Assembly (NCBI RefSeq): GCF_000829825.1
Contig: NZ_JXSL01000030.1
Location: forward strand, 689,501 to 753,500
Direction: 5' to 3'
DNA: 64,000 bases
Source of the DNA: Paramagnetospirillum magnetotacticum MS-1
GTDB taxonomy: Bacteria > Pseudomonadota > Alphaproteobacteria > Rhodospirillales > Magnetospirillaceae
Below, in pieces: positions 8,166-22,162 of this stretch (its first letter is position 1; every line of letters begins with the position of its first letter). Both the position numbers and the translations under genes were made by a program. The notes under the pieces are model-generated. The model was not told the DNA's origin and ran no database searches. It worked only from the letters and a program-made list of their open reading frames with translations.

Positions 8166-8180
8166 GCCGCCCTCCTGAAG

Positions 8181-8221
8181 TCATTCCCGTTACATGTAGG
8201 AATGATACATCTAAGAATCAT
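8181..8221. promoter_or_regulatory. Inverted repeats in the paaG-like/iorA gap
   Basis: TCATTCC (8181-8187) and GGAATGA (8199-8205) are perfect inverted arms around an 11-base centre that itself contains the palindrome TACATGTA (8191-8198). ATGAT (8202-8206) and ATCAT (8217-8221) form a second small pair. It is the only sizeable gap between boxA and iorB in this unit. It could be an mRNA hairpin that sets relative expression, or an operator for an internal iorAB promoter. No TGCA-N6-TGCA box occurs here. Confidence 0.35.
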
Positions 8222-9003
8222 CGCCCCAGGAACTTGGGGGCGCGCTTTTCCATGAAGGCCCGCACCCCTTCAGAATAGTCCTGGGTCCGCCCGGCCTCGG
8301 CCTGGAGATCGCGTTCCAGGTCAAGTTGAGCATCAAGCGTGTTGGCCCCCGAGCGGGCTAGGGCCTTCTTCATCAGGGCCAGTCCCTGTGTGGGCTGGGC
8401 CGCCAGTTGGGCGGCCATGGCCAAAACGGTGGTCAGCAACTGATCGTCCTCGACAAAGGCCCAGATCATGCCCCACTGGACCGCCTGTTCGGCGCTCACT
8501 TTATCGCCCAGCATCATCAGGGCGGTGGCACGCGCCGCCCCCACCAAACGCGGCAGGGTCCAGGTTCCTCCGGAATCGGGGATCAGCCCCACCTTGCAGA
8601 AGCTTTGGACGAAGGCGGCGGATTTGGCCGCGACGACAATGTCGCAGGCCAAAGCCAGATTGGCCCCGGCTCCGGCGGCGATGCCGTTGACGGCGGCCAC
8701 CACCGGCATGGACAGCGCCTTCAAGGAGCGGATCAGCGGATTATAGCGCGCATCCAGCGACGCCCCCAGATCGGGCGGCGGATCGCCGGGCTTGGACACC
8801 CGGTCGGAAAGGTCTTGGCCAGCGCAGAACCCCTTGCCCGCCCCGGTCAGCACCAGACAGCGGGTGCCGTCTTCGGCCACATGGGCGATGGCGGCGGCCA
8901 AGGCCCCATGCATCTCCACATTGAAGGCGTTGATGCGTTCGGGCCGGTTCAAGGTGATGGTGGTGACGTCGCCGCTGCGGGCGACCAGGATGGTCTCGCT
9001 CAT
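8218..9003 (-). CDS. Enoyl-CoA hydratase/isomerase family protein, PaaG-like
   Basis: 261 aa crotonase. Features: LNRPERINAFN at the N-terminus, oxyanion-hole segments GKGFCAGQDLSDR (near 60) and NGIAAGAGANLALACDIV (near 110-125), and GLIPDSGGTWTLPRLVG (near 140), with a C-terminal helix ending KRAPKFLGR. The pattern closely follows PaaG, the ring-1,2-epoxyphenylacetyl-CoA isomerase, including Asp in the IPD motif. Here the neighbours are box genes rather than paaABCDE, so it may act on box-pathway enoyl-CoA products (such as 3,4-didehydroadipyl-CoA) or on products of IorAB flux. It overlaps the thioesterase gene by 4 bp. Function within the crotonase family is inferred. Confidence 0.85.
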   Translation of the reverse strand: MSETILVARSGDVTTITLNRPERINAFNVEMHGALAAAIAHVAEDGTRCLVLTGAGKGFCAGQDLSDRVSKPGDPPPDLGASLDARYNPLIRSLKALSMPVVAAVNGIAAGAGANLALACDIVVAAKSAAFVQSFCKVGLIPDSGGTWTLPRLVGAARATALMMLGDKVSAEQAVQWGMIWAFVEDDQLLTTVLAMAAQLAAQPTQGLALMKKALARSGANTLDAQLDLERDLQAEAGRTQDYSEGVRAFMEKRAPKFLGR

Positions 9004-9479
9004 TGGGCCGCAACCTCCACCAGCCGGGTGCGATAGGCTTCCAGGCGTTCGCGCATGGGACCGGGCATGGGAACCGCCTTCACCTTTTCCTGATCGGCGA
9101 CGACACAGACGAAACTGGTCTCGAAGGCCACCACGCCGTCACCCCGCGCGCCGATGGTGCGGAAATGAATGGAAGAGCCCCCCACCCTGTCCACCAGGAC
9201 CGAGATATCCACCCGGTCGCCGGGCCGAAGCGGCGATTTGATCTCCATGCCGATCTTGACGAAGGGCGTGCCGAAGCCGTGTTCCTTGTTGATGGTGTAC
9301 CAGTCATAGCCGATGACATCGGCCATGAAGACCTCCAGCGCCTCCATGGCGTATTCCAGGAAGCGGGGCGTATAGACGATGCGCGCCGCGTCGGAATCGC
9401 CGAAATGGACCCGGCGGCGGTGAATGAACACGCCGCCTTCGATGGCCTCAATCTCTTCCAGCTCAATAGGTTTCGACAT
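9000..9479 (-). CDS. Acyl-CoA thioesterase of the 4-hydroxybenzoyl-CoA thioesterase (hot-dog) family
   Basis: 159 aa from the ATG at 9479. The sequence [20 protein letters not shown] near residues 25-45 matches the catalytic helix region of 4-hydroxybenzoyl-CoA thioesterases, with the conserved Asp followed by the YxxRFLEY-type helix. In known box clusters a thioesterase is thought to release CoA from stalled or misfit aryl-CoA intermediates. Its start lies 17 bp inside the 3' end of boxA and its stop overlaps the paaG-like start by 4 bp, so translation is probably coupled to boxA. Confidence 0.85.
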
Positions 9480-10644
9480 GATAGCGCCCTTCTTCGCGCA
9501 TCTTGGGGCGCAGGCCCGCCCAGTCCAGGCCATGCAGACGGCAGATATCGGCGAAGGCCTCGTCGCTGCCCTGCTCCATGCCCTTCAGGCCGCAGATGAA
9601 GATGTGGGTTTGGGGCGAAGCCAGCAGGGCGGCCAGATCGTCGGCGCGCTCGCGCAGCTTGTCCTGGACGTATTGCTTGGGCTGATCCGCCACGCGCGAG
9701 AAGGCCAGATTCACGTCGATCAGGCTTTTGGGCAGCTTCATCAGCGGGCCGAAATAGGGAAGCTCCTCCGGCGTGCGCGCCCCGAAGAACAGCATCAGCT
9801 TGCCCGGCGCGTCGGCGGCATTCCTGCGGCGGCGCTCGGTGAAGGCGCGAAACGGCGCCGAGCCGGTGCCGGTGCAGATCATGATGATATTGGCGTGTGG
9901 GTCGTCGGGCATCAGGAAGGCCTGGCCGAAGGGACCGGCCACGCTTACCTCGTCGCCCTTCTTCAGGTCGCAGACATAATTGGAGCCGACGCCGCCCGCC
10001 ACCCGTTTCACCGTCAGCGCCAGATTGTTGCAGCCCGACCGCTCGCCTTCCCTGGGCGAGGCGATGGAGTAGAGGCGGATATTGTGGGCGCGGCCCTTGG
10101 CGTCAACGCCGGGCGGCACGATGCCGATGCTCTGGCCCTCGAGAAAAGGAAAGGCGTTGTGCGAGAAATCCAGCACCACATGGTGGATGTCGGATTCGGC
10201 GCCCTCGCCGGTGATGCGCATATTGCCCGCCACGCGCGCCGTCACCGGCTTGTCGCGGGAATAGAGGTTGAAATAGGGCTTGGACGCGCTGGCCGGTGGC
10301 GGCACGGATGGGCCGGTGGTGGAAGTGGCCGCGGCCAGCAGATCGCTCACCTCGCCGGGGGGCAAGGGGGCGGGCTCGGCCGGGCCGGGACCGGTCTGAC
10401 CCAGGGGCAGTTCATCCCAGCCGAACTGGTCGTCAATGCTCCAGGGCTGGTCCACCAGCAGCCAGTTGTCGATGGCTCCGGTGGGACACGGCGAGACGCA
10501 GGTGCGACAGCCGGTGCACTTGTCGAATGACACCACGTAATTGGTGCCGTCATGGGTGATGGCATCAACCGGACAGGCTTCCTCGCAGGTATTGCAGCGG
10601 ATGCAGACCACCGGGTCGATGAGATGCTGTCGCTTGAGTTCCAT
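9463..10644 (-). CDS. boxA: Benzoyl-CoA 2,3-epoxidase reductase component BoxA
   Basis: 393 aa from the ATG at 10644, which has AAAGGA 8 bases upstream; the frame is open further back into a repeat. Two ferredoxin motifs lie at the N-terminus: [12 protein letters not shown] (C14, C17, C20, C24) and [12 protein letters not shown] (C43, C46, C49, C53). A Pro/Ala-rich linker follows, then an FNR-like FAD/NADPH module with RLYSIASP (FAD), [10 protein letters not shown] (NADPH) and a C-terminal aromatic end (RYHVETY). BoxA passes electrons from NADPH to BoxB for oxygen-dependent epoxidation of benzoyl-CoA. It is separated from boxB by a REP-like repeat of about 60 bp. Confidence 0.95.
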
Positions 10645-10665
10645 GGCCCGGATCCTTTGTTCTTT

Positions 10666-10725
10666 CGTCACCCCCGGGCTTGGCCCGGGGGTCCATGGAT
10701 GGCCGGGTCAAGCCCGGCCATGACG
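10666..10725. repeat. REP-like double-hairpin intergenic repeat, copy 2
   Basis: Lies between boxB and boxA. It has the same layout as 4461-4520: CGTCA, a CCCCCGGG...CCCGGGGG hairpin, the shared centre TCCATGGAT, then GGCCGGGTCAAGCCCGGCC and ATGACG. Being inside an operon, it may reduce read-through into boxA or protect the upstream boxCB message from 3' decay, changing BoxB:BoxA stoichiometry. That effect is inference. Confidence 0.8.
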
Positions 10726-10734
10726 GAACAGACG

Positions 10735-12156
10735 TTAAGCGAACCGCACGTAGTCGAAATCCACCGCCTGATTGTTGATGCCACGGGCCGGAGGCGCGAT
10801 CCAGTTGGCGAACTGGCCGGGCTTGGTCACCGCGCTGCCCATGAGCGAAAGCACATAGGCGAGATCGGATTCCGACGGCAGCCACTCGTCACGGCGACGC
10901 GCGAATTCTTCCGTGGAAATGACCTTACCGCTGGGGTCCACCGCGATATCGGAGAAGTGGCCGATGGCGCGGTTGAAGGCCAGATGGGGCAGCGTCAGCT
11001 TGAAGTCGATGCCGTGCTTGGCGATGATCTTGTTCCAGCGCTCCACGCCCTTGGCCACGTCCTCGGCCCAATCCAGACGCAGACGCTCGTTGAGCGCGTT
11101 CAAGGCCGGAACCTCGATGGCCTGGAAACCGCCGTTCACCGGATGCAGCACCGAATAGGTGGTGTTCTCCAACTGGTGATCGTCGCCGATCTTGGTTTCC
11201 TCATAGCGGCCCTTGATGCCCATATTGTACGAGGTGGCGGCATTGGTGGAGACTTCGGCGCCGTAGAGATCCGACGTCACCGAGTAGTGGAAGTTGAGGT
11301 AGCGCTGGATGGTGGGCAGGTCGATGACGCCGAATTTCCGGACATCGTCGGTGCGGTTCTCCTTCATCACCTGGCAGGCGCGCTCGATGATGCGGCCCAC
11401 GCCACTTTCCCCCACGAACATATGGTGGGCTTCCTCGGTCAGCATGAAGCGGCAGGAGCGCGACAGGGGATCGAAGCCCGATTCCGCCAGGGCGCAAAGC
11501 TGGTACTTGCCGTCGCGGTCGGTGATGAAGGTGAACATGAAGAAGGCCAGCCAATCGGCGGTCTTCTCGTTGAAGGCGCCCAGGATGCGCGGCTTGTCGG
11601 CATCGCCCGAGCGCCGGGCCAGCATCTCCTCGGCCTCTTCGCGGCCATCCTTGCCGAAATGGGCGTGCAGCAGATAGACCATCGCCCACAGATGGCGGCC
11701 TTCCTCCACATTGACCTGGAACAGGTTTCTGAGGTCGTAGAGCGACGGGCAGCACTTGCCCAACAGGCGCTGCTGCTCCACCGAGGCCGGTTCGGTATCG
11801 CCCTGGACGGTGATCAGGCGGCGCAGCATGGAGCGGTACTCGCCGGGCACTTCCTGCCAGGCGGCCTCGCCCTTATGGGCGCCGAAATTGACCTTGCGAT
11901 CCTTCTCCGGCGGCGCCAGGAAGATACCCCAGCGGTAATCCTCCATCTTCACATGGCCGAACTGGGCCCAGCCATCGGGCTCGGCGGAAATGGCGGTGCG
12001 CAGATAGATCTCGGAGGTCGACGTGCCCTCGGGGCCCATCTCCTTCCACCAGTCGATATAATGGGGCTGCCAGGATTCCAGGGCGCGCTGCAGCTTCCGG
12101 TCCTCGGACAGGTTGACGTTGTTGGGGATCTTTTCGGCGTAATTGATCGAGGACAT
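10735..12156 (-). CDS. boxB: Benzoyl-CoA 2,3-epoxidase oxygenase component BoxB
   Basis: 473 aa from the ATG at 12156. This is the class I diiron epoxidase of the aerobic CoA-dependent benzoate pathway. Likely metal-ligand helices are VNVEEGRHLW (Glu and His) and LTEEAHHMFVG (Glu, His), the ExxH pattern of diiron oxygenases. Length and the N-terminal NYAEKIPNNVNL match BoxB proteins. It inserts one oxygen atom into benzoyl-CoA to give 2,3-epoxybenzoyl-CoA, with BoxA as reductase. It starts 5 bp after boxC ends. Confidence 0.96.
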   Translation of the reverse strand: MSSINYAEKIPNNVNLSEDRKLQRALESWQPHYIDWWKEMGPEGTSTSEIYLRTAISAEPDGWAQFGHVKMEDYRWGIFLAPPEKDRKVNFGAHKGEAAWQEVPGEYRSMLRRLITVQGDTEPASVEQQRLLGKCCPSLYDLRNLFQVNVEEGRHLWAMVYLLHAHFGKDGREEAEEMLARRSGDADKPRILGAFNEKTADWLAFFMFTFITDRDGKYQLCALAESGFDPLSRSCRFMLTEEAHHMFVGESGVGRIIERACQVMKENRTDDVRKFGVIDLPTIQRYLNFHYSVTSDLYGAEVSTNAATSYNMGIKGRYEETKIGDDHQLENTTYSVLHPVNGGFQAIEVPALNALNERLRLDWAEDVAKGVERWNKIIAKHGIDFKLTLPHLAFNRAIGHFSDIAVDPSGKVISTEEFARRRDEWLPSESDLAYVLSLMGSAVTKPGQFANWIAPPARGINNQAVDFDYVRFA

Positions 12157-12161
12157 GACGG

Positions 12162-13814
12162 TTACACCCTTTCCTGATTGTAGGCGGCGCGCTTGCCGGT
12201 GCCGTAGAGCTTCAAGGCTCCGCCGTCGCCGACGGCATTGGGGCGCTGGAAGATCCAGTTCTGCCAGGCGGTCAGGCGGCCGAAGATCTTGGTTTCCATG
12301 GTTTCGGGACCGGCGAAGCGCAGATTGGCTTCCATGCCGGTCAGAGAATCGGGGGAGAAGGAGGCCCGCTCTTCGATCATCAGGCGGATCTCGTCCTCCC
12401 AATCGATGTCGTCGGGGGTTCCGGTGACCAGACCAAGCTTGGCGCATTCGCCTGCGTCCAGATCCTGGCCGATGGCGTCACGCGCCTTGCCCACGCTGTC
12501 GGGCTCGCCCAGGAAGCGGGTGGCCAGACGCGAGATGCCGTTGCCCATGGGCAGGCCGTCGAAATTGAGGCCCGAAAGCCGAATGGCGGCGGGAGGCAGG
12601 GTCGAGTCCTCGAAGGTACCGTCCAACATGAAGGAGCGGTCCACGGCGAACAGGATCTCGGCGACGAAACCGGCAAAGCAAGAACCGGGCTCCACCAGGG
12701 CGAAGAGGGTGCGGCTGGTGACGTCCAGACGCTTGAGTGTGCGCTTCCAGTAAAGAAGGACTTCCCGCACCAGCCAGTCCGAGGCGCCGAACTTTTGCAA
12801 CGCGGCGTCATAACCCATGACCAGATCGGAATCGCCTTCGGCGCGGAACACCCAGGTGGCGACGGTGGTCTCGTTGGCGCGCAGGTGCAAGATGGCGTCG
12901 TCCAACTCGCGGGCGAGCGCCAGGGGGTAGAAGTCCACGCCTTGGGCCTTGATCCCGGCCAGATCGGCGGGACAGGCGGCCTTGGGCCCCTTCAGCGTGA
13001 TATTGGCGGCCCGCGTCGAGCGGTCGAAAGTAATGTCGATGTGGGGATAGGTGACGCTGTCGGTGCCGATGACGCGCGACACCTGGGAGAGCACCACGCC
13101 CTTCTCGGAAGTGGGACGGTCGGATTTGGCGGCCAGTTCGGCGGCCTTCTTGGCCAGGGCCGCCTTGAAGGCCGAGGACGGAACCACCTCGTCCACCAGA
13201 CGCCATTCCACGGCGCGCTTGCCCTTCACGCCTTCCTCGATGGAGCAGAAGATGTCGGCCAGATCGCGGCGCACTCTTCGCTTGTCCACCACGCGGGTCA
13301 GGCCGCCGGTGCCGGGCAGCACGGCCAGCAGGGGCACTTCCGGCAGGGACACCGCCGTATTGCCGTCATCGACCATCATGATGTAGTCGGTGGCCAGAGC
13401 CAGTTCGTAGCCGCCGCCGGCGGCCGTGCCGGTCACCGCGCACAAATAGGTCTGGCGCGAATTGTCGGTGGCGTCCTCGATGGAATTGCGGGTCTCGTTG
13501 GTGAACTTGCAGAAGTTGACCTTGTGACCATGGCTGGAGACACCCAGCATCTTGATATTGGCGCCCGCGCAGAAAATCTTGGGGTTGGCGGAGGCCATGA
13601 CCACGGCGCGCACCTCGGGGTGCTCGAAGCGCAGACGCTGCACCGCGTCGTAGAGCTCGATATCAACGCCCAGATCGTAGGAATTCATCTTCAGCTCGTA
13701 GCCCGGCGCCAGCGTGGATGCCGGGTCCACATCCATGGTCAGCGTCGCCACCGGACCGTCGAAGGACAGCTTCCAGTGACGGTAGCTCTCGGGGGAGGTT
13801 TGAAAGTTGATCAT
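12162..13814 (-). CDS. boxC: 2,3-epoxybenzoyl-CoA dihydrolase BoxC
   Basis: 550 aa from the ATG at 13814, preceded by GAGGCGG. It is a long crotonase-family protein: the N-terminal half has the enoyl-hydratase core (ANPKIFCAGANIKMLG; GTAAGGGYELALATDYIMM; LPEVPLLAVLPGTGGLTR), followed by a second, diverged C-terminal crotonase-like half. BoxC opens the ring of 2,3-epoxybenzoyl-CoA with two waters, giving 3,4-didehydroadipyl-CoA semialdehyde and formate. It is the first gene of the seven-gene unit and has two TGCA-N6-TGCA boxes upstream. Formate release links it to the formate dehydrogenase genes 3-8 kb away. Confidence 0.95.
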   Translation of the reverse strand: MINFQTSPESYRHWKLSFDGPVATLTMDVDPASTLAPGYELKMNSYDLGVDIELYDAVQRLRFEHPEVRAVVMASANPKIFCAGANIKMLGVSSHGHKVNFCKFTNETRNSIEDATDNSRQTYLCAVTGTAAGGGYELALATDYIMMVDDGNTAVSLPEVPLLAVLPGTGGLTRVVDKRRVRRDLADIFCSIEEGVKGKRAVEWRLVDEVVPSSAFKAALAKKAAELAAKSDRPTSEKGVVLSQVSRVIGTDSVTYPHIDITFDRSTRAANITLKGPKAACPADLAGIKAQGVDFYPLALARELDDAILHLRANETTVATWVFRAEGDSDLVMGYDAALQKFGASDWLVREVLLYWKRTLKRLDVTSRTLFALVEPGSCFAGFVAEILFAVDRSFMLDGTFEDSTLPPAAIRLSGLNFDGLPMGNGISRLATRFLGEPDSVGKARDAIGQDLDAGECAKLGLVTGTPDDIDWEDEIRLMIEERASFSPDSLTGMEANLRFAGPETMETKIFGRLTAWQNWIFQRPNAVGDGGALKLYGTGKRAAYNQERV

Positions 13815-13844: not shown

Positions 13845-13858
13845 TGCACTATAATGCA
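13845..13858 (-). promoter_or_regulatory. Putative BoxR operator upstream of boxC (proximal)
   Basis: TGCACTATAATGCA, a near-perfect TGCA-N6-TGCA palindrome ending 31 bp before the boxC ATG. On the coding strand it contains TATAGT, which fits a -10 element. Matching boxes occur at 13917, 16902, 21175 and 22149. TGCA-containing palindromes are the type bound by the BzdR/BoxR repressors of Azoarcus, from memory. Confidence 0.75.
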
Positions 13859-13877
13859 CGTTTGGAATTATTCGCAA
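13848..13877 (-). promoter_or_regulatory. Putative sigma-70-type promoter of the boxCBA operon
   Basis: On the minus strand TTGCGA (13877-13872) is followed after 18 bp by TATAGT (13853-13848), which is buried in the proximal operator. A start near 13841 would give a 5' UTR of about 27 bases including GAGGCGG. Repressor bound at the operator would block the -10 element. Confidence 0.5.
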
Positions 13878-13916
13878 GAGCAATTTGGTATTAAAGTACC
13901 GCTTTGCCGATTCACG

Positions 13917-13930
13917 TGCATTATCGTGCA
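13917..13930 (-). promoter_or_regulatory. Putative BoxR operator upstream of boxC (distal)
   Basis: TGCATTATCGTGCA, another TGCA-N6-TGCA box, centred 72 bp upstream of the proximal box. That is close to seven helical turns, so two repressor dimers could sit on the same DNA face and cooperate or loop. Confidence 0.65.
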
Positions 13931-13956
13931 TGTGGGGAGGCGGACGCCGCCTTCAA

Positions 13957-14016
13957 CCCTCTCCCGCGCGCGGGAGAGGGAGGGACCCGGCCGTCAGACC
14001 GGGAGGGTGAGGGCCT
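13957..14016. repeat. Palindromic intergenic repeat / possible terminator downstream of boxD
   Basis: CCCTCTCCCGCG (13957-13968) is followed directly by its reverse complement CGCGGGAGAGGG (13969-13980), a perfect 24-bp palindrome. A second imperfect pair (CCCGGCC...GACCGGG) and GAGGGTGAGGGCC follow. The CCCTCTCCC...GGGAGAGGG type is a dispersed extragenic repeat in many proteobacteria. It lies just after the boxD stop and before the boxC promoter, where a terminator would be expected, but has no U-run. Confidence 0.6.
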
Positions 14017-14018
14017 TC

Positions 14019-15566
14019 TTAAAGTGCGACCACCGCCGCGCCTTGGGTCATGGCATCCAGCATGGCCCGGCTGCCCTGAACGGCGCTGCGCTGCATGTAG
14101 AAGCGCAGGCCCCTCAAGCCGCCCAGTTCCTCGCCGCCACCAGCGCGGCTTGGGCCGCCATGGGTGCAGTGGGGCATGACCACGCCATGGCCGGAATGGC
14201 TGGCGGCCACCGAACCGTCCACCACCAGGACGCGGCCATGACTGGTCGCGATGGCGGGAACGAAATCGGCCAGGAAGGCGCAATCGCCGGAAAAGACTGA
14301 GGCCGCCAGGGAACCGCCGCCCCTGCGCGCCAATTCCACCGCCTGTTCCACGCTGTCATAGGGCATCAAGGTGGCGACGGGTCCGAAGACCTCGACCTCA
14401 TGCACCGCCGTCGCCGCCAGGGGATTGTTGCACAGCAGCAACGTCGGCGGCACGAAACAACCACCATCGTCGTTGCCGCCGCCCGCCACCACCTGGGTTT
14501 CGGCCTTCAAAGTCTCCAATCCGCCCCAGGCGGCCATCGCCTGGGCGCGGCTGACCAGCGGCCCCATGCGCACGCCCTCGGTGCGGGGATCACCCATCAA
14601 AGCCTTGGCCAGAGCGGCTTTCAGCCCATCGACCACGGCGTCCATCCGGTCACGGGGAACCAGGATTCGGCGGATGGCGGTGCATTTCTGCCCCGCCTTG
14701 ACCGTCATCTCGCGCGAGACTTCCTTGATGAAGGCGGCGAACTCGGCCCCGTCCGGTTTGGCGTCCGGCCCAAGGGCGCAAAGGTTCAAGGAATCCGCCT
14801 CCACCGCGAAGCGGATATTGGCGGCGATGACATTGGGATTCGAACGCAGTTGAGCCGCCGTATCGGCCGACCCGGTAAAGGCCACCACGTCGCCCGGCTG
14901 CAGATGATCCATCAGATCACGCCCACCGCCGCACAGCAGCGATAGGGCGCCCTCGGGCAGCACGCCCGCTTCGACCACATCCTTGACCATCTCATAGGCC
15001 AGAAGGCAGGTCGCCGTTGCGGGCTTGGCCAGGAACGGCACACCGGCCAACAGGCTTACCGCCGCCTTCTCCCACAGCCCCCAGGAGGGGAAGTTGAAGG
15101 CGTTGATATGCACCGCCACACCCTGGATGGTGGTCCAGATATGGCGGCCACGAAAGGCCTCGTCCTTGGTCAGTTGGTCGTCGGTGGCCTCGGCCAGCAG
15201 ATGGGCCTCGCCCAGCTTGCGCCCGATGGAGGCGTAGTATTTCAGCGTTCCGATGCCGCCATCCACGTCCAGGGCCGCATCCAGCGCCGTATTGCCGGAA
15301 TTGGCCAGCGCGATGGAATTGTAACGCTCGCGATTCTCGGCCAGCACGCCTGCCACCGCATTGATCAGCCCGGCACGGGCGGCGAATGACAGGGCACGCA
15401 GCACCGGTCCGCCCTTGGTCCGGGCATGGGCCAGGGCTTCGGCCATGTCCAGACCGTCGCCGGAAGCGGTGGCCAGCACCTCGCCGCTCACCGGGTCCTT
15501 CAATTGCGCGCCCGAACCGGCACCATCCTGCCAACGCCCGGCCAGGTAGCTCTGCAAACGGATCAT
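14019..15566 (-). CDS. boxD: 3,4-didehydroadipyl-CoA semialdehyde dehydrogenase
   Basis: 515 aa aldehyde dehydrogenase resembling the N-terminal domain of PaaZ. Visible: NAD(P)-binding/active-site lead NAFNFPSWGLWEKAA (near 155), FTGSADTAAQLRS (near 235), the catalytic Glu region FAVEADSLN, and catalytic Cys in VKAGQKCTAIRRI (near 295). It oxidises the BoxC product semialdehyde to 3,4-didehydroadipyl-CoA, producing NADPH. It is the last gene of a three-gene unit (DUF4863, hydrolase, boxD) with a 4-bp gap to the hydrolase. In Azoarcus this enzyme is called BoxD or BoxZ; the letter here is by analogy. Confidence 0.9.
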   Translation of the reverse strand: MIRLQSYLAGRWQDGAGSGAQLKDPVSGEVLATASGDGLDMAEALAHARTKGGPVLRALSFAARAGLINAVAGVLAENRERYNSIALANSGNTALDAALDVDGGIGTLKYYASIGRKLGEAHLLAEATDDQLTKDEAFRGRHIWTTIQGVAVHINAFNFPSWGLWEKAAVSLLAGVPFLAKPATATCLLAYEMVKDVVEAGVLPEGALSLLCGGGRDLMDHLQPGDVVAFTGSADTAAQLRSNPNVIAANIRFAVEADSLNLCALGPDAKPDGAEFAAFIKEVSREMTVKAGQKCTAIRRILVPRDRMDAVVDGLKAALAKALMGDPRTEGVRMGPLVSRAQAMAAWGGLETLKAETQVVAGGGNDDGGCFVPPTLLLCNNPLAATAVHEVEVFGPVATLMPYDSVEQAVELARRGGGSLAASVFSGDCAFLADFVPAIATSHGRVLVVDGSVAASHSGHGVVMPHCTHGGPSRAGGGEELGGLRGLRFYMQRSAVQGSRAMLDAMTQGAAVVAL

Positions 15567-15570
15567 GGAG

Positions 15571-16359
15571 TCATCCTACGGATTGGACAAAGCGCGTGAT
15601 GGCGGCAAGCACCGCTTCCGGCTGGTCCTTGTGGGGGGAATGGCGGCAGGATTCGAGCAGCACCACTTCGGCGCCCGCTCCGGCCTTGGCTTTGATGGAA
15701 TCGTACTGAACGGCGCTGCCGTATTCGTCGTCACGGCCCTGGATCACCATCACCGGCACCGTGATGCCGGGCAGGAATTCCTCCAGGTTCCATTTCATGA
15801 AATCGGGATCGAGCCAGGCGCCGTTCCAGCCCCAAAAGGCGCAATCCACGTTGTCGTGATGCAGCTTCATCAGCCGCGCCCGCAGATCGCCGCTCTCATA
15901 GGCGGTCTTGGCGTCGCGGATGGAGGCGACGCAGATCTCCTCATTCATCACATGGGGTGCCAGACAGACCACGCCCTTGATATCGGGGGCAGGCGTACCC
16001 CCCGCATGGATCAAGGCGATGGACGCGCCATCGGAATGACCGATCAGCACCACTGGCCCTAAGTCCAGATGGGCCAGCAGGCGTGGCAGAACGTCCAGGC
16101 CTTCGTGATGCATGTAGGTCAGCGGCCGGGGCAGATCCACGGGGCTGGAGCGGCCATAGCCCGCGCGGGAATAGAGGAACACCCCGCATCCCGTGGCCTC
16201 GGCCACCTTATCGGGAAAATCCCGCCAGATGCCCACCGATCCCAGTCCCTCGTGCAGGAAGACCAAACTGGGCAGGCCCGGCCTGTGCGGATGGACCCAG
16301 CGGTATTCCAGGCGTTGGTCGCCCAGGTCGATCAGGCCGTGCTGATGCTCGCGCCACAT
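15571..16359 (-). CDS. Alpha/beta hydrolase of the box cluster (lactonase/thioesterase-like)
   Basis: 262 aa from the ATG at 16359. Alpha/beta hydrolase fold: oxyanion HEGLGSVGIWRDFP near 38, nucleophile elbow IGHSDGAS (Ser near 110), acid in QGRDDEYG near 215, and catalytic His in SCRHSPHKDQP near 240. Comparable hydrolases sit in other box clusters and have been suggested to open lactones or hydrolyse CoA esters formed off-pathway. Its true substrate is not evident. It starts 10 bp after the upstream DUF4863 gene and runs 4 bp from boxD. Confidence 0.85.
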   Translation of the reverse strand: MWREHQHGLIDLGDQRLEYRWVHPHRPGLPSLVFLHEGLGSVGIWRDFPDKVAEATGCGVFLYSRAGYGRSSPVDLPRPLTYMHHEGLDVLPRLLAHLDLGPVVLIGHSDGASIALIHAGGTPAPDIKGVVCLAPHVMNEEICVASIRDAKTAYESGDLRARLMKLHHDNVDCAFWGWNGAWLDPDFMKWNLEEFLPGITVPVMVIQGRDDEYGSAVQYDSIKAKAGAGAEVVLLESCRHSPHKDQPEAVLAAITRFVQSVG

Positions 16360-16369
16360 GAGCCAGCCC

Positions 16370-16840
16370 TCACTTGGGCCGCGAGAAATCGATCTGCCCG
16401 TCAGGCAGAAGATAAAGCACCAAGGCCGCGCCTTCGGTGAGCGTCGGGCGATGAACCGAATCGGGGCCATAGACCAGCCAGCCGCGCGGCGCTCCGTCGA
16501 ACTTGGCCGCTGGGTCGATGGACATGATCATGTCGATCTCGCCCAAGGGGTGGCGATGGCGCGGCCCCGCCACATCCTTCATATGGACCACATCGATGGA
16601 AAAGCCCGACAGTTCGCTGTCGGCCTCGGCGACCCGGCCATAGCGGATGCCGCCATGCTCGTTCTCGCACATCCAGCCTTCGCCGATGGCTTTGTGACAG
16701 GCCGCCTCGATGGATTTGAACAACTCGCCGTCCTCGGGGAACCGCGCGTTCAGCACCGCGCCCAAGGAGGCATCGACCGGCAGTCCGGCAATGGAAGAGG
16801 TTACCTGCGCCACCAGCGCCTTGAATGCGGACTTGGACAC
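16370..16840 (-). CDS. DUF4863 / 4-hydroxylaminobenzoate lyase (PnbB)-like small protein
   Basis: 156 aa from a GTG at 16840 (GTG TCC AAG). The central segment GPRHRHPLGEIDMIMSID with later RGWLVYGPDSVHRPT gives clustered His and Glu residues of a cupin-like metal site. It matches the DUF4863 family as I recall it, which includes PnbB, a 4-hydroxylaminobenzoate lyase. In box clusters its job is undefined; a role in clearing aromatic by-products or sensing is possible. It is the promoter-proximal gene of the boxD unit, with a TGCA-type operator 62 bp upstream and a small 5' UTR hairpin. Confidence 0.8.
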   Translation of the reverse strand: MSKSAFKALVAQVTSSIAGLPVDASLGAVLNARFPEDGELFKSIEAACHKAIGEGWMCENEHGGIRYGRVAEADSELSGFSIDVVHMKDVAGPRHRHPLGEIDMIMSIDPAAKFDGAPRGWLVYGPDSVHRPTLTEGAALVLYLLPDGQIDFSRPK

Positions 16841-16852
16841 GGCTCGATGCTC

Positions 16853-16872
16853 CCGAAACGGCGAAGTTTCGG
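16853..16872 (-). promoter_or_regulatory. 5' UTR hairpin before the DUF4863-hydrolase-boxD unit
   Basis: CCGAAAC (16853-16859) and GTTTCGG (16866-16872) are perfect 7-bp arms with a 6-base loop, ending 12 bp before the GTG start. It could alter mRNA stability or ribosome access to the weak GGGAG just downstream. It may also be incidental. Confidence 0.35.
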
Positions 16873-16901
16873 AACTATATCACCGCATTTTCCATCTTAG
16901 A

Positions 16902-16915
16902 AGCATTATAATGCA
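16902..16915 (-). promoter_or_regulatory. Putative BoxR operator upstream of the DUF4863-hydrolase-boxD unit
   Basis: AGCATTATAATGCA, one base away from TGCA-N6-TGCA and containing the perfect palindrome GCATTATAATGC. TATAAT inside it fits a -10 element on the minus strand. A second candidate -10, TGATATAGT, lies nearer the gene at about 16875-16885. No good -35 was found at 16-18 bp. Confidence 0.6.
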
Positions 16916-16932
16916 TGATCATTTTCCTCTCC

Positions 16933-16971
16933 CGTCATCCCGGCCAAAGCGTAGCGCTATCCGGGATGACG
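16933..16971. repeat. REP-like single-hairpin repeat, copy 3
   Basis: CGTCATCCCGG (16933-16943) and CCGGGATGACG (16961-16971) are perfect 11-bp inverted arms. It shares the CGTCAT/ATGACG flanks of the other two copies but has one hairpin. It overlaps the last codons of the formate dehydrogenase subunit gene and could act as its terminator. Confidence 0.65.
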
Positions 16972-19638
16972 AAGAGGGACCAGCCGCACGGCCGAGACTT
17001 TCAGTTCGGGAATCTTGCCCACCGGGTCCAGTACCGGATTGGTCAGCCAATTGGCCGCCGCCTCGGTGAAGCAGAAGGGCAGGAACAAGGCCCCCGGCGA
17101 CAGCCTGGAATCCGCCGCAACCGCCGCCTCCACGCTGCCCCGTCGGCTTTCAAGGCGCACCCTTGCACCCTCGGTCAGGCCCAGCCGTTCCATGTCGGCC
17201 GGGCTGACATTGACGGCGGGCAAGCCCTGAAGACGGTCCAATACGCCCGACCGCCTCGTCATGGAGCCCGTATGCCAGTGCTCCAGCACTCTGCCCGTGG
17301 ACAGCACGAAGGGATAATCGGAATCCGGATTTTCCGCCGCAGACAGGCCCTTGGCCGGGACCAGCCGTGCCTTGCCGTCCTCTGTGGGAAAGCTCTCGCC
17401 GAACAAGATGGCCTTGCCGCCCGGCGTGGTGATGCCGCCCTCGGCATCCAGCCGCTTCCAGGTGATGCCCGACAACGAGCCCATCAGGCCGCACATCTCG
17501 TCGAACACCTCGTCCGGCCCGGTATAGGTCCAGTCCAGACCCAGGCGTTTGGCCATTTCCGTGATGATCCACAGATCGGGCCGCGCCTCGCCCGGCGGAT
17601 CGATCACCTGGCGCCCCATCTGAATATGGCGGTCCGTATTGGTGAAACTGCCGGTCTTCTCGAAGAAGCTGGACGCGGGCAGAACCACATCGGCCAGCAT
17701 GGCGGTTTCCGTTAGGAAAATATCCTGCACCACCAGATGATCCAGACCCGCCAGGGCCTCGCGGGCATGGGCGAGGTCGGGGTCGGACATGGCCGGATTC
17801 TCGCCCTCGATATACATACCGCGCAAGGTTCCGGCCGCCGCCGCATCCATCATTTCGACAACGGTAAGACCGGGATTGGGGTCGAGATCGACGCTCCAAC
17901 CGGCCTCGAACCGGCTTCGCGCCGCCTCGATCCCCACCCGTCCGTAATCGGGCAGCATCATGGGAATCAGCCCGGCATCCGAGGCGCCCTGGACATTATT
18001 TTGACCTCGTAACGGATGCAGGCCGCTGCCCTTCTTGCCCAGCTGACCACAGAGCAGGGCCAGGGCGATGAGAGCCCGCGAATTGTCGGTGCCGTGGCTG
18101 TGCTGCGACACGCCCATGCCCCACAAGATCATGGCGGATCCGGCCCGGGCATAGGCTCTGGCCACCATTCGTATGGTCCCGGCATCGATGCCGCAAAGCG
18201 GCGCCATGGCTTCGGGGGAATAGGACTTTAGATGTTCGGCCAGCTGGGCAAACCCGGTGGTGCGCGCCGCCACGAAGTCGCGGTCGTAGATCTCCTCGGC
18301 AACGATGGTGTGCAGCATGGCGTTCAAGAGCGCCACATCCGTACCGTTCTTGAATTTGAGATGATGGCTGGCGAAACGGGTCAGCGCCTGGCCCCTGGGA
18401 TCGAGGATCACCAGTTGCGCGCCCCGTTTTACCGCATTCTTGATGAAGCTGGCCGCCACCGGATGATTGGCCGAAGGATTGGCGCCGATCAGGATGATCA
18501 GATCGGCATTGGCCACCTCGGCCACCGGCGCGGTGACCGCGCCCGAACCGATGCCCTCCAGCAGCGCCGCCACCGAGGAGGCATGGCACAGCCGCGTACA
18601 GTGATCCACATTGTTGGTGCCGAAACCGGTGCGCACCAGCTTTTGGAACAGATAGGCCTCCTCGTTGGAGCCCTTGGCCGAGCCCAGCCCGGCCAGAGCC
18701 GATTTGGGCAGGCGTTTGAACCCTTGCGCCGCCCGATCCAGCGCCTCTTCCCAAGAGGCGGGGCGGAAATGGGTGAAGGGATCGGCGGGGTCGAGCGGCT
18801 CCTTGGGCACGCCGTCCTTTCGGATCAGCGGTACGGTCAGGCGCTGGGGATGGCGGGAATAATCAAAGCCGAAACGGCCCTTGACGCATAGGCGCTCGTG
18901 ATTGGCCTGACCGTCACGCCCCGTGGCGGCGATGATGGCATCGCCCGTCACATGATAGGTGAGCTGACATCCCACGCCGCAATAGGGGCACAGGCTGTCC
19001 ACCATCCGCTCCGCCCTGACCGGCCCACCCGCCAGAGCCAAGGCTCCGGTGGGGCAGGCCTGGACGCATTCGCCGCAGCCGACGCAGGAACTGGCCCCCA
19101 TGGGATCAGCAAAGTCGAAACTGATGCGGCTGTGCGCCCCCCGGCCACTCATGCCGATGACGTCGTTGACCTGAACATCGCGGCAGGCCCGAAGGCACAG
19201 CGCGCAGTGGATGCAGGCATCCAGGCGCACCGCCATGGCGGGGTGGGAGGTGTCGGGCGCGCAAGACGCCGTCCTGGGGGCGAAACGGCTTTGTTCCACC
19301 CCCACCGCCTTGGCCCAGCCGAGAAAGGCGGAGTCCAGGTCGGGCGAGACATGATCGGCCAGCAGCAGTTCGAAGACCAGTCGGCGGGACTTCTCCACCC
19401 GCTCGCCCCGGCTCTCCACCACCATGCCGGGGGTGGGAAGGCGTCGGCAAGACGCCACCAGGACGCGCTCGCCCTTGATTTCCACCACGCAGGCGCGGCA
19501 ATTGCCCTCTGGCTCGAAGCCCGGCCGGTCAGTGTGACAGAGATGAGGGATCGTGGTGCCTAAGCGCTTTGACACCTGCCAGATGGTCTCGCCCTCCTTG
19601 GCCTCGACCTCGGCGCCGTCCAGGACGAAGCGGATCAT
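16957..19638 (-). CDS. fdsA: NAD-dependent formate dehydrogenase, molybdenum/tungsten subunit (FdsA-like)
   Basis: 893 aa. N-terminal [2Fe-2S] region (CHTDRPGFEPEGNCRACV), then [4Fe-4S] motifs CIHCALCLRACRDV and CVGCGECVQACP, a Cys set CPYCGVGCQL near 228, and the bis-MGD domain. The metal-ligand segment is HCTRLCHASSVAALLEG, so the ligand is Cys rather than selenocysteine, with the family's following His and preceding Arg. The C-terminal cap (GRVLEHWHTGSMTRR) is complete. It oxidises formate to CO2, passing electrons to the fused NuoE/F subunit and NAD+. Co-location with boxC, which releases formate, supports that substrate. It overlaps its partner by 4 bp. No fdhD or other accessory gene is in the window. 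Confidence 0.9.
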   Translation of the reverse strand: MIRFVLDGAEVEAKEGETIWQVSKRLGTTIPHLCHTDRPGFEPEGNCRACVVEIKGERVLVASCRRLPTPGMVVESRGERVEKSRRLVFELLLADHVSPDLDSAFLGWAKAVGVEQSRFAPRTASCAPDTSHPAMAVRLDACIHCALCLRACRDVQVNDVIGMSGRGAHSRISFDFADPMGASSCVGCGECVQACPTGALALAGGPVRAERMVDSLCPYCGVGCQLTYHVTGDAIIAATGRDGQANHERLCVKGRFGFDYSRHPQRLTVPLIRKDGVPKEPLDPADPFTHFRPASWEEALDRAAQGFKRLPKSALAGLGSAKGSNEEAYLFQKLVRTGFGTNNVDHCTRLCHASSVAALLEGIGSGAVTAPVAEVANADLIILIGANPSANHPVAASFIKNAVKRGAQLVILDPRGQALTRFASHHLKFKNGTDVALLNAMLHTIVAEEIYDRDFVAARTTGFAQLAEHLKSYSPEAMAPLCGIDAGTIRMVARAYARAGSAMILWGMGVSQHSHGTDNSRALIALALLCGQLGKKGSGLHPLRGQNNVQGASDAGLIPMMLPDYGRVGIEAARSRFEAGWSVDLDPNPGLTVVEMMDAAAAGTLRGMYIEGENPAMSDPDLAHAREALAGLDHLVVQDIFLTETAMLADVVLPASSFFEKTGSFTNTDRHIQMGRQVIDPPGEARPDLWIITEMAKRLGLDWTYTGPDEVFDEMCGLMGSLSGITWKRLDAEGGITTPGGKAILFGESFPTEDGKARLVPAKGLSAAENPDSDYPFVLSTGRVLEHWHTGSMTRRSGVLDRLQGLPAVNVSPADMERLGLTEGARVRLESRRGSVEAAVAADSRLSPGALFLPFCFTEAAANWLTNPVLDPVGKIPELKVSAVRLVPLRHPG

Positions 19639-21170
19639 GTCACCACCTCGGGGAAATGGCGCAGCAGGCTCTGCCAGACATTGGGCGCCGCCTGGCCCAG
19701 GCCGCAGATGGAGGCGTCGCGCATCACCTGGGCCAGATCATTCAGCAGATCCTCGTCCCAGCGGGGGCTGGCCAACAGATCCGCCGCCTTGGCCGTTCCC
19801 ACCCGGCACGGCGTGCACTGGCCGCAACTTTCATGGGCGAAAAAGCGGGCGAGGTTCAGCGCATGCGCCCGAAGATCGTCCTCTTGCGAGAACACCACCA
19901 CCGCCGCCGAACCGATAAAGCCGCCATGCTCCTCGATGGCGCCGAAGGCCAGGGGCGGCGTGACATGGGCGGGCAGGAACCCGCCCGAGGCCCCGCCCGG
20001 CAGATAGGCGCGAAGCTGGTGCCCGTCCTCCATGCCGCCGCAGAATTCCTCGATCAGTTCGGTGATGGTGATGCCGTTGGGGGCGATCTTGACGCCGGGC
20101 AGGCGAACTCTTCCGGAAACGGAATAGGTGCGCAAGCCCCGGTGCCCGTTGCGGCCCTCATCGGTGAACAGCTCCGCCCCCTCGGCCAGGATGCGGCTTA
20201 CCCAATACAGGGTCTCGACGTTATTGACCACGGTGGGCCGCCCGAACAGTCCGACCTCGGCCACATAGGGCGGACGCTGGCGCGGCAGGCCGCGCTTGCC
20301 CTCCAGGCTTTCGATCAGCGCCGATTCCTCGCCACAGACATAGGCCCCGGCGCCGCGCCGCAGATGGACGGGCACCGAACCGGGCAAGGCCCGGATCAGG
20401 ACCGTCAGCAGCTTATGCAGGTCGGCATACTCGTCGCGCAGATAGAGATAGACCTCGTCCGCCTCCACCGCCCAGGCGGCGATCAGGGCGCCTTCCAGCA
20501 CGCGGGCGGCGTTGGTTTGCAGGAACCAGCGGTCCTTGAAAGTGCCGGGCTCGCCCTCATCGGCATTGACCACCACCAGCCGGGGACCGGGCCGGGCCGC
20601 CACGGCGCGCCACTTGCGCGCCGTGGGAAAGCCCGCGCCCCCCATGCCGCGCAGACCCGCCCGCTCCAACTCGGCCAGCACCTCGTCGCGAGGCAGCTCC
20701 CCCGACCGGCAGCGGGCGAGAACAGGGTAATCCTCGTGGAGGATCGCATCGGACACCACACCCTTACCCGGCAGGCTGGCCGGGGCGTGATCGCACAGCC
20801 CCATGCAAGGCGCCTCCTCGACCACGACACCCTCGGGCACTCGCTCCGGCATCCGCATGGCGCAGGCCGGGCCGGTACAGCGGCGTAAGACGGCCCCAGG
20901 CGCGGCCTCGTCGTCATCCAGCAGGCGGAAATGGGCATAGAAGCTGGCCACCTCCTGCACTTCGGCGGGACTAAGCCGCATCTCCTCGGCCAGAGCGGTA
21001 AGATGGCGGCGGAACAGCCCGCCGAAACGGTCCTGCAACGCGTGCAGATTCTCGATCAGCAGATCGCGGCGGCGGAAATCGTCGGGCAGCAGGGCCTCCA
21101 CTTCGGCCACGCATTCGGGCGAGGCGGCGGGGGGACCGAGACGGCGATGGGTGCGGGGGGTGGCGCTCAT
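19635..21170 (-). CDS. Fused NuoE/NuoF-type (FdsG-FdsB) diaphorase subunit of formate dehydrogenase
   Basis: 511 aa from the ATG at 21170; a GTG at 21179 lies inside the operator and is less likely. Residues about 20-145 are NuoE/FdsG-like: a helical bundle then thioredoxin-like [2Fe-2S] cysteines CTGPAC and CMGLC. The remainder is NuoF/FdsB: GLRGMGGAGFPTARKW (NADH/FMN), NADEGEPGTFKDR, GAGAYVCGEESALIES and the [4Fe-4S] motif ESCGQCTPCR with a later CGLG cysteine. It transfers electrons from FdsA to NAD+. Separate fdsG and fdsB genes are more usual in the Fds enzymes I know. No Shine-Dalgarno sequence is visible and a TATAGT lies just upstream, so translation may be leaderless. Confidence 0.88.
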   Translation of the reverse strand: MSATPRTHRRLGPPAASPECVAEVEALLPDDFRRRDLLIENLHALQDRFGGLFRRHLTALAEEMRLSPAEVQEVASFYAHFRLLDDDEAAPGAVLRRCTGPACAMRMPERVPEGVVVEEAPCMGLCDHAPASLPGKGVVSDAILHEDYPVLARCRSGELPRDEVLAELERAGLRGMGGAGFPTARKWRAVAARPGPRLVVVNADEGEPGTFKDRWFLQTNAARVLEGALIAAWAVEADEVYLYLRDEYADLHKLLTVLIRALPGSVPVHLRRGAGAYVCGEESALIESLEGKRGLPRQRPPYVAEVGLFGRPTVVNNVETLYWVSRILAEGAELFTDEGRNGHRGLRTYSVSGRVRLPGVKIAPNGITITELIEEFCGGMEDGHQLRAYLPGGASGGFLPAHVTPPLAFGAIEEHGGFIGSAAVVVFSQEDDLRAHALNLARFFAHESCGQCTPCRVGTAKAADLLASPRWDEDLLNDLAQVMRDASICGLGQAAPNVWQSLLRHFPEVVT

Positions 21171-21174
21171 GGAC

Positions 21175-21188
21175 TGCACTATAGTGCA
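21175..21188 (-). promoter_or_regulatory. Putative BoxR operator at the formate dehydrogenase start
   Basis: TGCACTATAGTGCA is a perfect 14-bp palindrome ending 4 bp before the ATG at 21170. TATAGT at 21183-21178 is placed so that transcription would begin at or next to the ATG. It is in the 31-bp gap after boxR, so read-through from boxR is also possible. Confidence 0.75.
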
Positions 21189-21201
21189 TCAGGCTGAAAA
21201 A

Positions 21202-22074
21202 TCACAGCCCCAGATGGGGGGCGCAAAGCCGCGATAATTCCTCGGTGCTGTCGGCGATACTGCGGCCCGACGTGTTGAGCACCGCGTCGGCCCGGCCATA
21301 GAGATGGCGCCGGGCATCGAGAATGGCCCGAAGGTCTTCCATGGCGGCCATTTGCTGCCCGGCGATGGGGCGCAGATCGCCCTGGCCCATGACGCGGCGC
21401 ATATGGTCCTCGGGCGTCGCCTGGACCCAGACGGTAAAGCACGACTGCAGCAGCAATTCGAAGGTTCTGGGCTCGGAGACCAGCGAGCCGCCCGCCTCCA
21501 GCACCATGGAGGGCTGAGCCTCCACCGTGTTCTCCAGGGCGGAATATTCCAGCTTGCGATAGCCCTTCTGACCGGTGGACAGCAAAATCTCGGTCATGTC
21601 CATGCCCGCCATCTGCTCGATCACCGAGGTGATGCGCACGAAGGGGGAGGCAAAACGCTCGGCCACCGCCTGGCCCAGCGTGGTCTTGCCCGCGCCCCGC
21701 AGGCCGATCAGCGCCACCCGGCGCTTGAGCTTCAGGCCGCGCTTGAAGTTCTGGCGCAGCAGGACATAAGCCTCGGATTGCTGATCGGGGTTCAGCTGAT
21801 CCAGGAACTTCTTGGCCAGCGGCAGATCGGGATGGCCGGTCTCGGATTCCGCCTCGATCAGGTCGGTGATGGCGGTATCCATGGCCTGGGCCAGCAGCCA
21901 CAGGATATTGACGCTGACATTGGCCTGGCCGCCCTCCAGTTGGGCGAGATAGCGCTCGGAAATACCGGCATGGCTGGACAGATCCTTGCGCGACATGCCG
22001 CGCCGGGCGCGGAATGCCTTGACCCGATCGCCCAACCGCCTGGAAAGAACGGCGAATTCCGCCTGTTCGACCAT
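21202..22074 (-). CDS. boxR: Benzoyl-CoA-responsive transcriptional regulator BoxR (XRE + shikimate-kinase-like)
   Basis: 290 aa. The N-terminus has an XRE/Cro-type helix-turn-helix (RKDLSSHAGISERYLAQLEG, about 29-48). A linker precedes a shikimate-kinase-like domain with Walker A GLRGAGKTT at 124-132. This is the BzdR/BoxR architecture; in Azoarcus these proteins repress benzoate genes and release DNA when benzoyl-CoA binds the kinase-like domain. A TGCA-N6-TGCA box 75 bp upstream of its ATG indicates autoregulation, and four further boxes lie before catabolic units. It is separated from the formate dehydrogenase genes by 31 bp. Confidence 0.93.
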   Translation of the reverse strand: MVEQAEFAVLSRRLGDRVKAFRARRGMSRKDLSSHAGISERYLAQLEGGQANVSVNILWLLAQAMDTAITDLIEAESETGHPDLPLAKKFLDQLNPDQQSEAYVLLRQNFKRGLKLKRRVALIGLRGAGKTTLGQAVAERFASPFVRITSVIEQMAGMDMTEILLSTGQKGYRKLEYSALENTVEAQPSMVLEAGGSLVSEPRTFELLLQSCFTVWVQATPEDHMRRVMGQGDLRPIAGQQMAAMEDLRAILDARRHLYGRADAVLNTSGRSIADSTEELSRLCAPHLGL

Positions 22075-22148
22075 GATCCCCCGTGCCCGAAATCCTGTTG
22101 CCCGGCAGTCAGTGAAGCACGGCTTTTCCCGATTGGCTAGCCCGGACC

Positions 22149-22162
22149 TGCACTATGGTGCA
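22149..22162 (-). promoter_or_regulatory. Putative BoxR operator upstream of boxR (autoregulation)
   Basis: TGCACTATGGTGCA, TGCA-N6-TGCA type, 75 bp before the boxR ATG and 11 bp from the 3' end of the ldcA-like gene. CATAGT on the coding strand could be the -10 element. No convincing -35 is seen at 16-18 bp. Confidence 0.65.

Follow-up and report, generated by a model that had tools for sequence, protein, structure and literature searches.

The closest described relatives of the system considered here are the BoxR regulon of Betaproteobacteria and the BzdR-controlled PN promoter of Azoarcus sp. CIB. The published BoxR palindrome is ATGCACTATAGTGCAT, and in Azoarcus EbN1 formate dehydrogenase (fdh) has been proposed as a BoxR target by co-transcription, because it lies so close to the gene for the lactonase (Suvorova and Gelfand 2019, PMC6449761). 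The betaproteobacterial clusters are divergent and can include bclA, and the benzoate-coenzyme A (CoA) ligase belongs to the regulon there, which the relevant part of that account does not state as universal (PMC6449761). BzdR, a repressor paralogous to BoxR, has been footprinted on TGCA(N6)TGCA operators and has benzoyl-CoA as its inducer; of the three operator regions of PN, the one at the -10 and -35 has palindromes of other spacings, and the N6 palindromes lie upstream (PMC6678401). Here we consider a cluster of box genes in Paramagnetospirillum magnetotacticum MS-1, within a 64,000-nucleotide (nt) stretch of contig NZ_JXSL01000030.1 (positions 689,501 to 753,500; hereafter the window), where five palindromes preceding four transcription units very probably serve as operators of the BoxR protein encoded in the same cluster. 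The type of switch is already known. Unlike the betaproteobacterial clusters, however, the units here all run in one direction, fdh carries its own box, and the ligase is encoded elsewhere in the genome; unlike PN, boxC has two clear boxes and fdh one, and the -10 falls within a palindrome of N6 spacing.

Scanning the window for TGCA-N6-TGCA gives four exact sites (13845-13858, 13917-13930, 21175-21188 and 22149-22162), and a fifth at 16902-16915 with one mismatch, which confirms the five positions given in an earlier sequence-only reading of this DNA. Two of the boxes sit upstream of boxC and the others upstream of pnbB (a DUF4863 gene), the fused gene fdhGB and boxR, and every target gene is on the minus strand. 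Taken by itself the loose pattern says little; it is the shared core TGCAYTATNRTGCA that gives the sites their significance. This tight motif, allowing one mismatch at most, has 10 strand-wise matches in the window, equivalent to the five sites, where 0.15 would be expected, and none of 100 shuffles gave such a result. Across the whole 4.52 Mb genome it occurs at the same five sites and nowhere else, bearing out the claim that the boxes stand only before boxC, the DUF4863-boxD unit, formate dehydrogenase and boxR.

The regulator itself (21202..22074, minus strand; 290 amino acids) combines an XRE helix-turn-helix domain (HTH_3, PF01381) with a shikimate-kinase-like domain (SKI, PF01202) and scores 369.6 bits against NF006015, whose cut-off is 204. 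It thus resembles the known BoxR/BzdR regulators in its two domains, in the position of its gene beside the box catabolic genes and in the TGCA-repeat operators at its presumed target promoters. A BoxR regulon of four units, as the sequence-only reading had proposed, is well supported because of this score, the agreement with the published motif and the retention of boxes at their targets in relatives. We hold with high confidence that BoxR acts on the five palindromes as a benzoyl-CoA-sensing repressor. Without benzoyl-CoA, BoxR dimers would occupy the palindromes and keep four units shut, namely boxCBA with the genes that follow, pnbB-lactonase-boxD, fdhGB-fdhA and, probably more weakly, boxR itself. 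Conversion of benzoate to benzoyl-CoA would release BoxR, and the formate from BoxC, whose reaction is described as releasing it (PMC6449761), would meet a co-induced formate dehydrogenase that oxidises it. Three promoter geometries are envisaged: the box would cover the -10 at boxC and fdh, abut the -35 at pnbB with the -10 downstream, and lie just upstream of the -35 at boxR.

Conservation of the boxes was followed through the genus and the order. BoxR was found in 28 of the 297 genomes of the order searched; 14 of these, MS-1 included, are members of the genus and supply the promoter counts below, and the 14 outside the genus were mapped only. The genus comparison comprised 17 genomes, of which 14 have boxR, and boxC scores above cut-off in the same 14. 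The three genomes without either gene hold no zero-mismatch tight site and just two to three one-mismatch matches each. Boxes are carried by boxC in 14/14 genomes and by pnbB in 14/14, and boxR has one that keeps 7 or 8 of the 8 arm letters in 9/14. When the cluster is rearranged in close relatives, the boxes usually stay with their genes: boxR lies on a separate contig in genomes G255, G158 and G190, a long distance separates boxC from boxR within one contig in G185 and G118, and the boxes are still with their targets.

At boxC, the proximal box (TGCATTATAGTGCA; 13845..13858, minus strand) contains the -10 of a putative promoter, TTGCGA-N18-TATAGT (13848..13877, minus strand), recognised from a promoter-pattern scan together with conservation. 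The scan by itself is uninformative, with 2 promoter-like sites against 1.8 expected in shuffles. Inside the proximal box, TATAGT (TATAAT in one genome) is present in 14/14 genomes, as is a -35-like hexamer of differing form, TTGCGA 18 bp upstream in nine and TNNTCA 17 bp upstream in five. This pattern supports a box placed over the -10 as the mode of repression at boxC. The distal box (13917..13930, minus strand) lies 72 bp upstream of the proximal one; in 11/14 genomes a box that matches 7 or all 8 of the arm letters is found at a distance of 71-73 bp. A third, degenerate site, GGTACTTTAATACC, situated 42 bp before the proximal box (four helical turns), was considered and rejected, as the best internal offset in the test was -18 and not -42; in some genomes this stretch belongs to a longer and different inverted repeat. 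As a separate observation, the two boxC boxes are separated by a stretch with a conserved inverted repeat (13887-13900 and flanks, minus strand), which may be the site of another regulator. In G140, G255 and G158 this repeat is extended and almost perfect, with matching changes in both arms as judged by eye.

The pnbB-unit box (TGCATTATAATGCT; 16902..16915, minus strand) has a different relation to its promoter, which on conservation appears to be TTCTAA-N17-TATAGT with a TG extension (16874..16902, minus strand). TTCTAA is found in 12/14 genomes, the spacing is 17 in 13/14 (18 in G158), and the second hexamer is TATCGT in two; the promoter downstream of the box is conserved and the flanking sequence upstream is little so. 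The terminal T of the box, its mismatch position, is the same in 14/14 genomes. This T is also the first T of the conserved -35. The mismatch is thus kept, and the TATAAT inside the box probably does not act as the -10. At a distance of 31 bp from the main box, a further degenerate box overlying the pnbB -10 was discarded as indistinguishable from conservation of the -10 itself. The boxR box (TGCACCATAGTGCA; 22149..22162, minus strand), located by the pattern scan, is followed by a promoter-like element, TAGCCA-N17-TTCACT with TG before the second hexamer (22111..22139, minus strand), which is suggested by conservation. TAGCCA-N17-TTCANT recurs downstream of the box position in 10/14 genomes, or in 13/14 with the pattern loosened after the sequences had been viewed, and it starts 6 or 9 bp past the box in the nine genomes with a good box (8/8 arm letters in seven of the 14, 7/8 in two).

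One departure from the known regulons concerns formate dehydrogenase. The perfect palindrome TGCACTATAGTGCA (21175..21188, minus strand) has TATAGT at 21183-21178 and ends 4 nt before the fdhGB ATG. Twelve genomes of the genus have fdh among their clustered box genes (no fdh was found in the stretches examined of G110 and G140). Such a box is present in 11 of the 12, and every one of the 11 contains TATAGT or TATAAT, which supports a box over the -10 as the mode of repression here as well. The sequence-only reading had expected the regulon to reach beyond the core box genes and to take in formate dehydrogenase, and within the genus that expectation is supported. It had also predicted repression by blocking of the -10, from the TATAAT, TATAGT or CATAGT within four of the five boxes. 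The letters are indeed there, and conservation backs the hexamer as a true -10 at boxC (14/14) and fdh (11 boxes) only; the prediction did not carry over to pnbB, where the promoter lies downstream of the box, or to boxR, where the promoter-like element does.

In seven genomes the fdh ATG is exactly 4 nt past the box, with no ribosome-binding site between, and its A is therefore the eighth base after TATAGT. Mapped promoters of M. gryphiswaldense have the form cTTGcc plus TATaaT, transcription of most genes there starts at an A 6-9 bp past the -10, and about 5 % of the transcripts are leaderless (PMC9549626). The first 34 codons of fdhGB look coding, with 11, 5 and 18 variable columns of 34 by codon position in six genomes, G275 being excluded from the count. 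An ATG standing where transcription should begin, followed by codons of coding character, leads us to predict a leaderless fdh mRNA in these seven genomes. Elsewhere the arrangement varies: the likely ATG is 20-21 nt past the box with GGAG between in G255, G185 and G190 (G190 also has an out-of-frame ATG 4 nt past the box), and 7 nt past it in G118.

It is improbable that the box between boxR and fdh serves boxR only, or is a leftover, with fdh being read through from boxR. As such read-through would allow, fdhGB is on the strand of boxR with its ATG 31 nt past the boxR stop, and a conserved -35 is lacking before the fdh box. However, boxR lies on another contig in G255 and G190, and yet both retain the fdh box 20-21 nt before the ATG with GGAG between. 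A terminator-like hairpin at the boxR end (21222-21207) also speaks against read-through, weakly, since the scan gave 4 hairpins of this kind where shuffles gave 6.9.

Binding of the palindromes by a regulator other than BoxR is very unlikely. The motif tracks the box genes as well as it tracks boxR, and its distribution among genomes therefore does not discriminate. Nevertheless, the motif matches the printed BoxR and BzdR operators (PMC6449761, PMC6678401), the site given for BenR is instead TGCA-N6-GGNTA (PMC6449761), and the XRE domain is well conserved in the BoxR alignment, from which locus L154 was excluded for a stop within its translation. The motif is also enriched around boxR at large. 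We examined 79 named BoxR loci, which are the 80 best of a longer list after removal of one duplicate (L091, the same as G110), and the tight motif, one mismatch allowed, gave 72 sites in 51 of them, against none for the reversed and none for the arm-swapped control, and 17 sites in 14 loci for the core-swapped one. Among the 14 loci of the same order outside the genus, nine have an exact loose or a near-tight box somewhere in the stretch.

Several results weigh against BoxR control of all four units. No site at up to one mismatch is present in the stretches examined of 28 of the 79 best BoxR loci, and five of the 14 same-order loci outside the genus show no box, several of these stretches being short. 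As boxR and boxC co-occur, the 17 genomes cannot separate a motif that follows BoxR from one that follows the box genes. Five of 14 genomes have a weak boxR box or lack it, and boxR of G190 has none. As for formate dehydrogenase, the lack of a conserved -35 counts here too, and fdh of G158 is without a box. Outside the genus, the fdh-like matches in seven of the 79 best loci (some of them weak) have none directly in front in the maps made, and the same holds for the fdh-like genes of L079 and L081. In addition, a single fdh operator is unlike the PN promoter, which with one operator region alone is described as repressed and not inducible (PMC6678401).

The probability that the boxes are an effect of chance or composition is negligible, even with the loose TGCA-N6-TGCA occurring 19 times in the genome and its one-mismatch form not enriched in the window (18 sites against 31 expected), given that the tight motif is confined to five promoter sites, was matched by 0/100 shuffles and keeps its positions in up to 14 genomes. 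The bare pattern stands out no more than mildly in the window, where four exact sites compare with 1.29 expected (4/100 shuffles reach four); the 19 in the genome exceed the 7 of the reversed control pattern and fall below the 94.6 predicted from a chain built on the window's dinucleotides.

G190 (97 % complete, 920 contigs) has no boxD above cut-off. On its C320 (L213:5947-7437) an unrelated aldehyde dehydrogenase gene, placed after a 3-hydroxyacyl-CoA dehydrogenase gene, has a perfect box and GGAG before its ATG, and on C64 (L214:6072) a separated iorA-like gene, which elsewhere ends the box operon, carries its own box TGCACAATAATGCA. G110 is likewise without boxD above cut-off, and no replacement of the aldehyde dehydrogenase type was seen there. 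We tentatively suggest, at somewhat less than an even chance for the whole, that BoxR of this genus employs a single operator in three kinds of promoter arrangement, that this operator travels with the individual catabolic genes when clusters come apart and is gained by recruited unrelated genes (as in G190), and that at fdh the operator, the -10 and the start codon lie so close together that the ATG is also the point of transcription start. In the open-access literature we have seen no report of a direct fdh operator, of the three geometries or of how boxes behave when the cluster is rearranged. Such an fdh operator would tie the removal of formate, the BoxC by-product, directly to the benzoyl-CoA switch, where the earlier proposal was of co-transcription only (PMC6449761). 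The cluster also offers a natural set of promoters that differ in whether the same operator overlies the -10, adjoins the -35 or lies upstream of it, so that its placement could be related to repression and to induction by benzoyl-CoA. Zero-mismatch sites at G275 C221, G158 C59 and G152 C1:143948 were set aside as chance, the nearby open reading frames scanned including no gene that fits the pathway. An additional one-mismatch site on G275 C10, the sole such extra mapped, has none of the queried genes in its map.

Whether the motif also marks the benzoate-CoA ligase had been raised by the sequence-only reading, and a genome-wide scan found no proper box there. The best ligase (C24:56072-57592, 794.5 bits) is outside the window, in contrast to the betaproteobacterial regulon, and follows, on the same strand, genes for a branched-chain-type ATP-binding cassette transporter, as assigned by scans of those after the first of the row; together they are likely a benzoate transporter-ligase operon. 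No tight site with up to one mismatch marks it in the whole-genome scan, and its surrounding 20 kb contain no TGCA-N1-, N6- or N15-TGCA. A promoter-like TTGCA-N17-TANNNT precedes the first gene of this row (L082:12600-12700, C24) and the closest orthologue in 12/12 genomes, the comparison using 12 of 19 transporter-gene matches. Over its -10, in the register of a box, lies CGCA-N6-TRCC in 12/12 (TGCC in eight, TACC in four). This pattern was written after the orthologues had been viewed and is a lead only, and we rejected control of the ligase through a proper BoxR box, the nearest approach being the degenerate CGCA-N6-TGCC. One may speculate that a weak BoxR site at the ligase would leave some enzyme making inducer.

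The minus-strand genes of the cluster are boxR, fdhGB, fdhA, pnbB, a lactonase-like hydrolase gene, boxD, boxC, boxB, boxA and those that follow. The fdhGB product (19635..21170) fuses a thioredoxin-like [2Fe-2S] subunit to the NADH/FMN-binding subunit of an NAD-type formate dehydrogenase (PF01257, PF01512, PF10589), and fdhA (16957..19638) encodes the alpha subunit (TIGR01591, 701.2 bits, cut-off 666.25). The pnbB-like gene (16370..16840; PF16155) is followed by an alpha/beta hydrolase gene (15571..16389; PF12697), likely a 3-hydroxyadipyl-CoA lactone lactonase by analogy with the published clusters (PMC6449761), and by boxD (14019..15566; NF008868, 785.7 bits, cut-off 444). Further on are boxC, for 2,3-epoxybenzoyl-CoA dihydrolase (12162..13814; TIGR03222, 1000.4 bits, cut-off 712.3), and boxB and boxA, for benzoyl-CoA 2,3-epoxidase (9463..12156; boxA by TIGR03224, boxB by position and conservation). 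Thioesterase, paaG-like and iorA-like genes (6066..9533), assigned by family matches, are probably the rest of the boxC operon, given their conserved order. The product of 6066-8165 resembles indolepyruvate ferredoxin oxidoreductase at 283 bits, under the TIGR03336 cut-off of 650.9, and this iorA-like gene stands after the paaG-like gene in 10/14 genomes as mapped, some of the maps being short.

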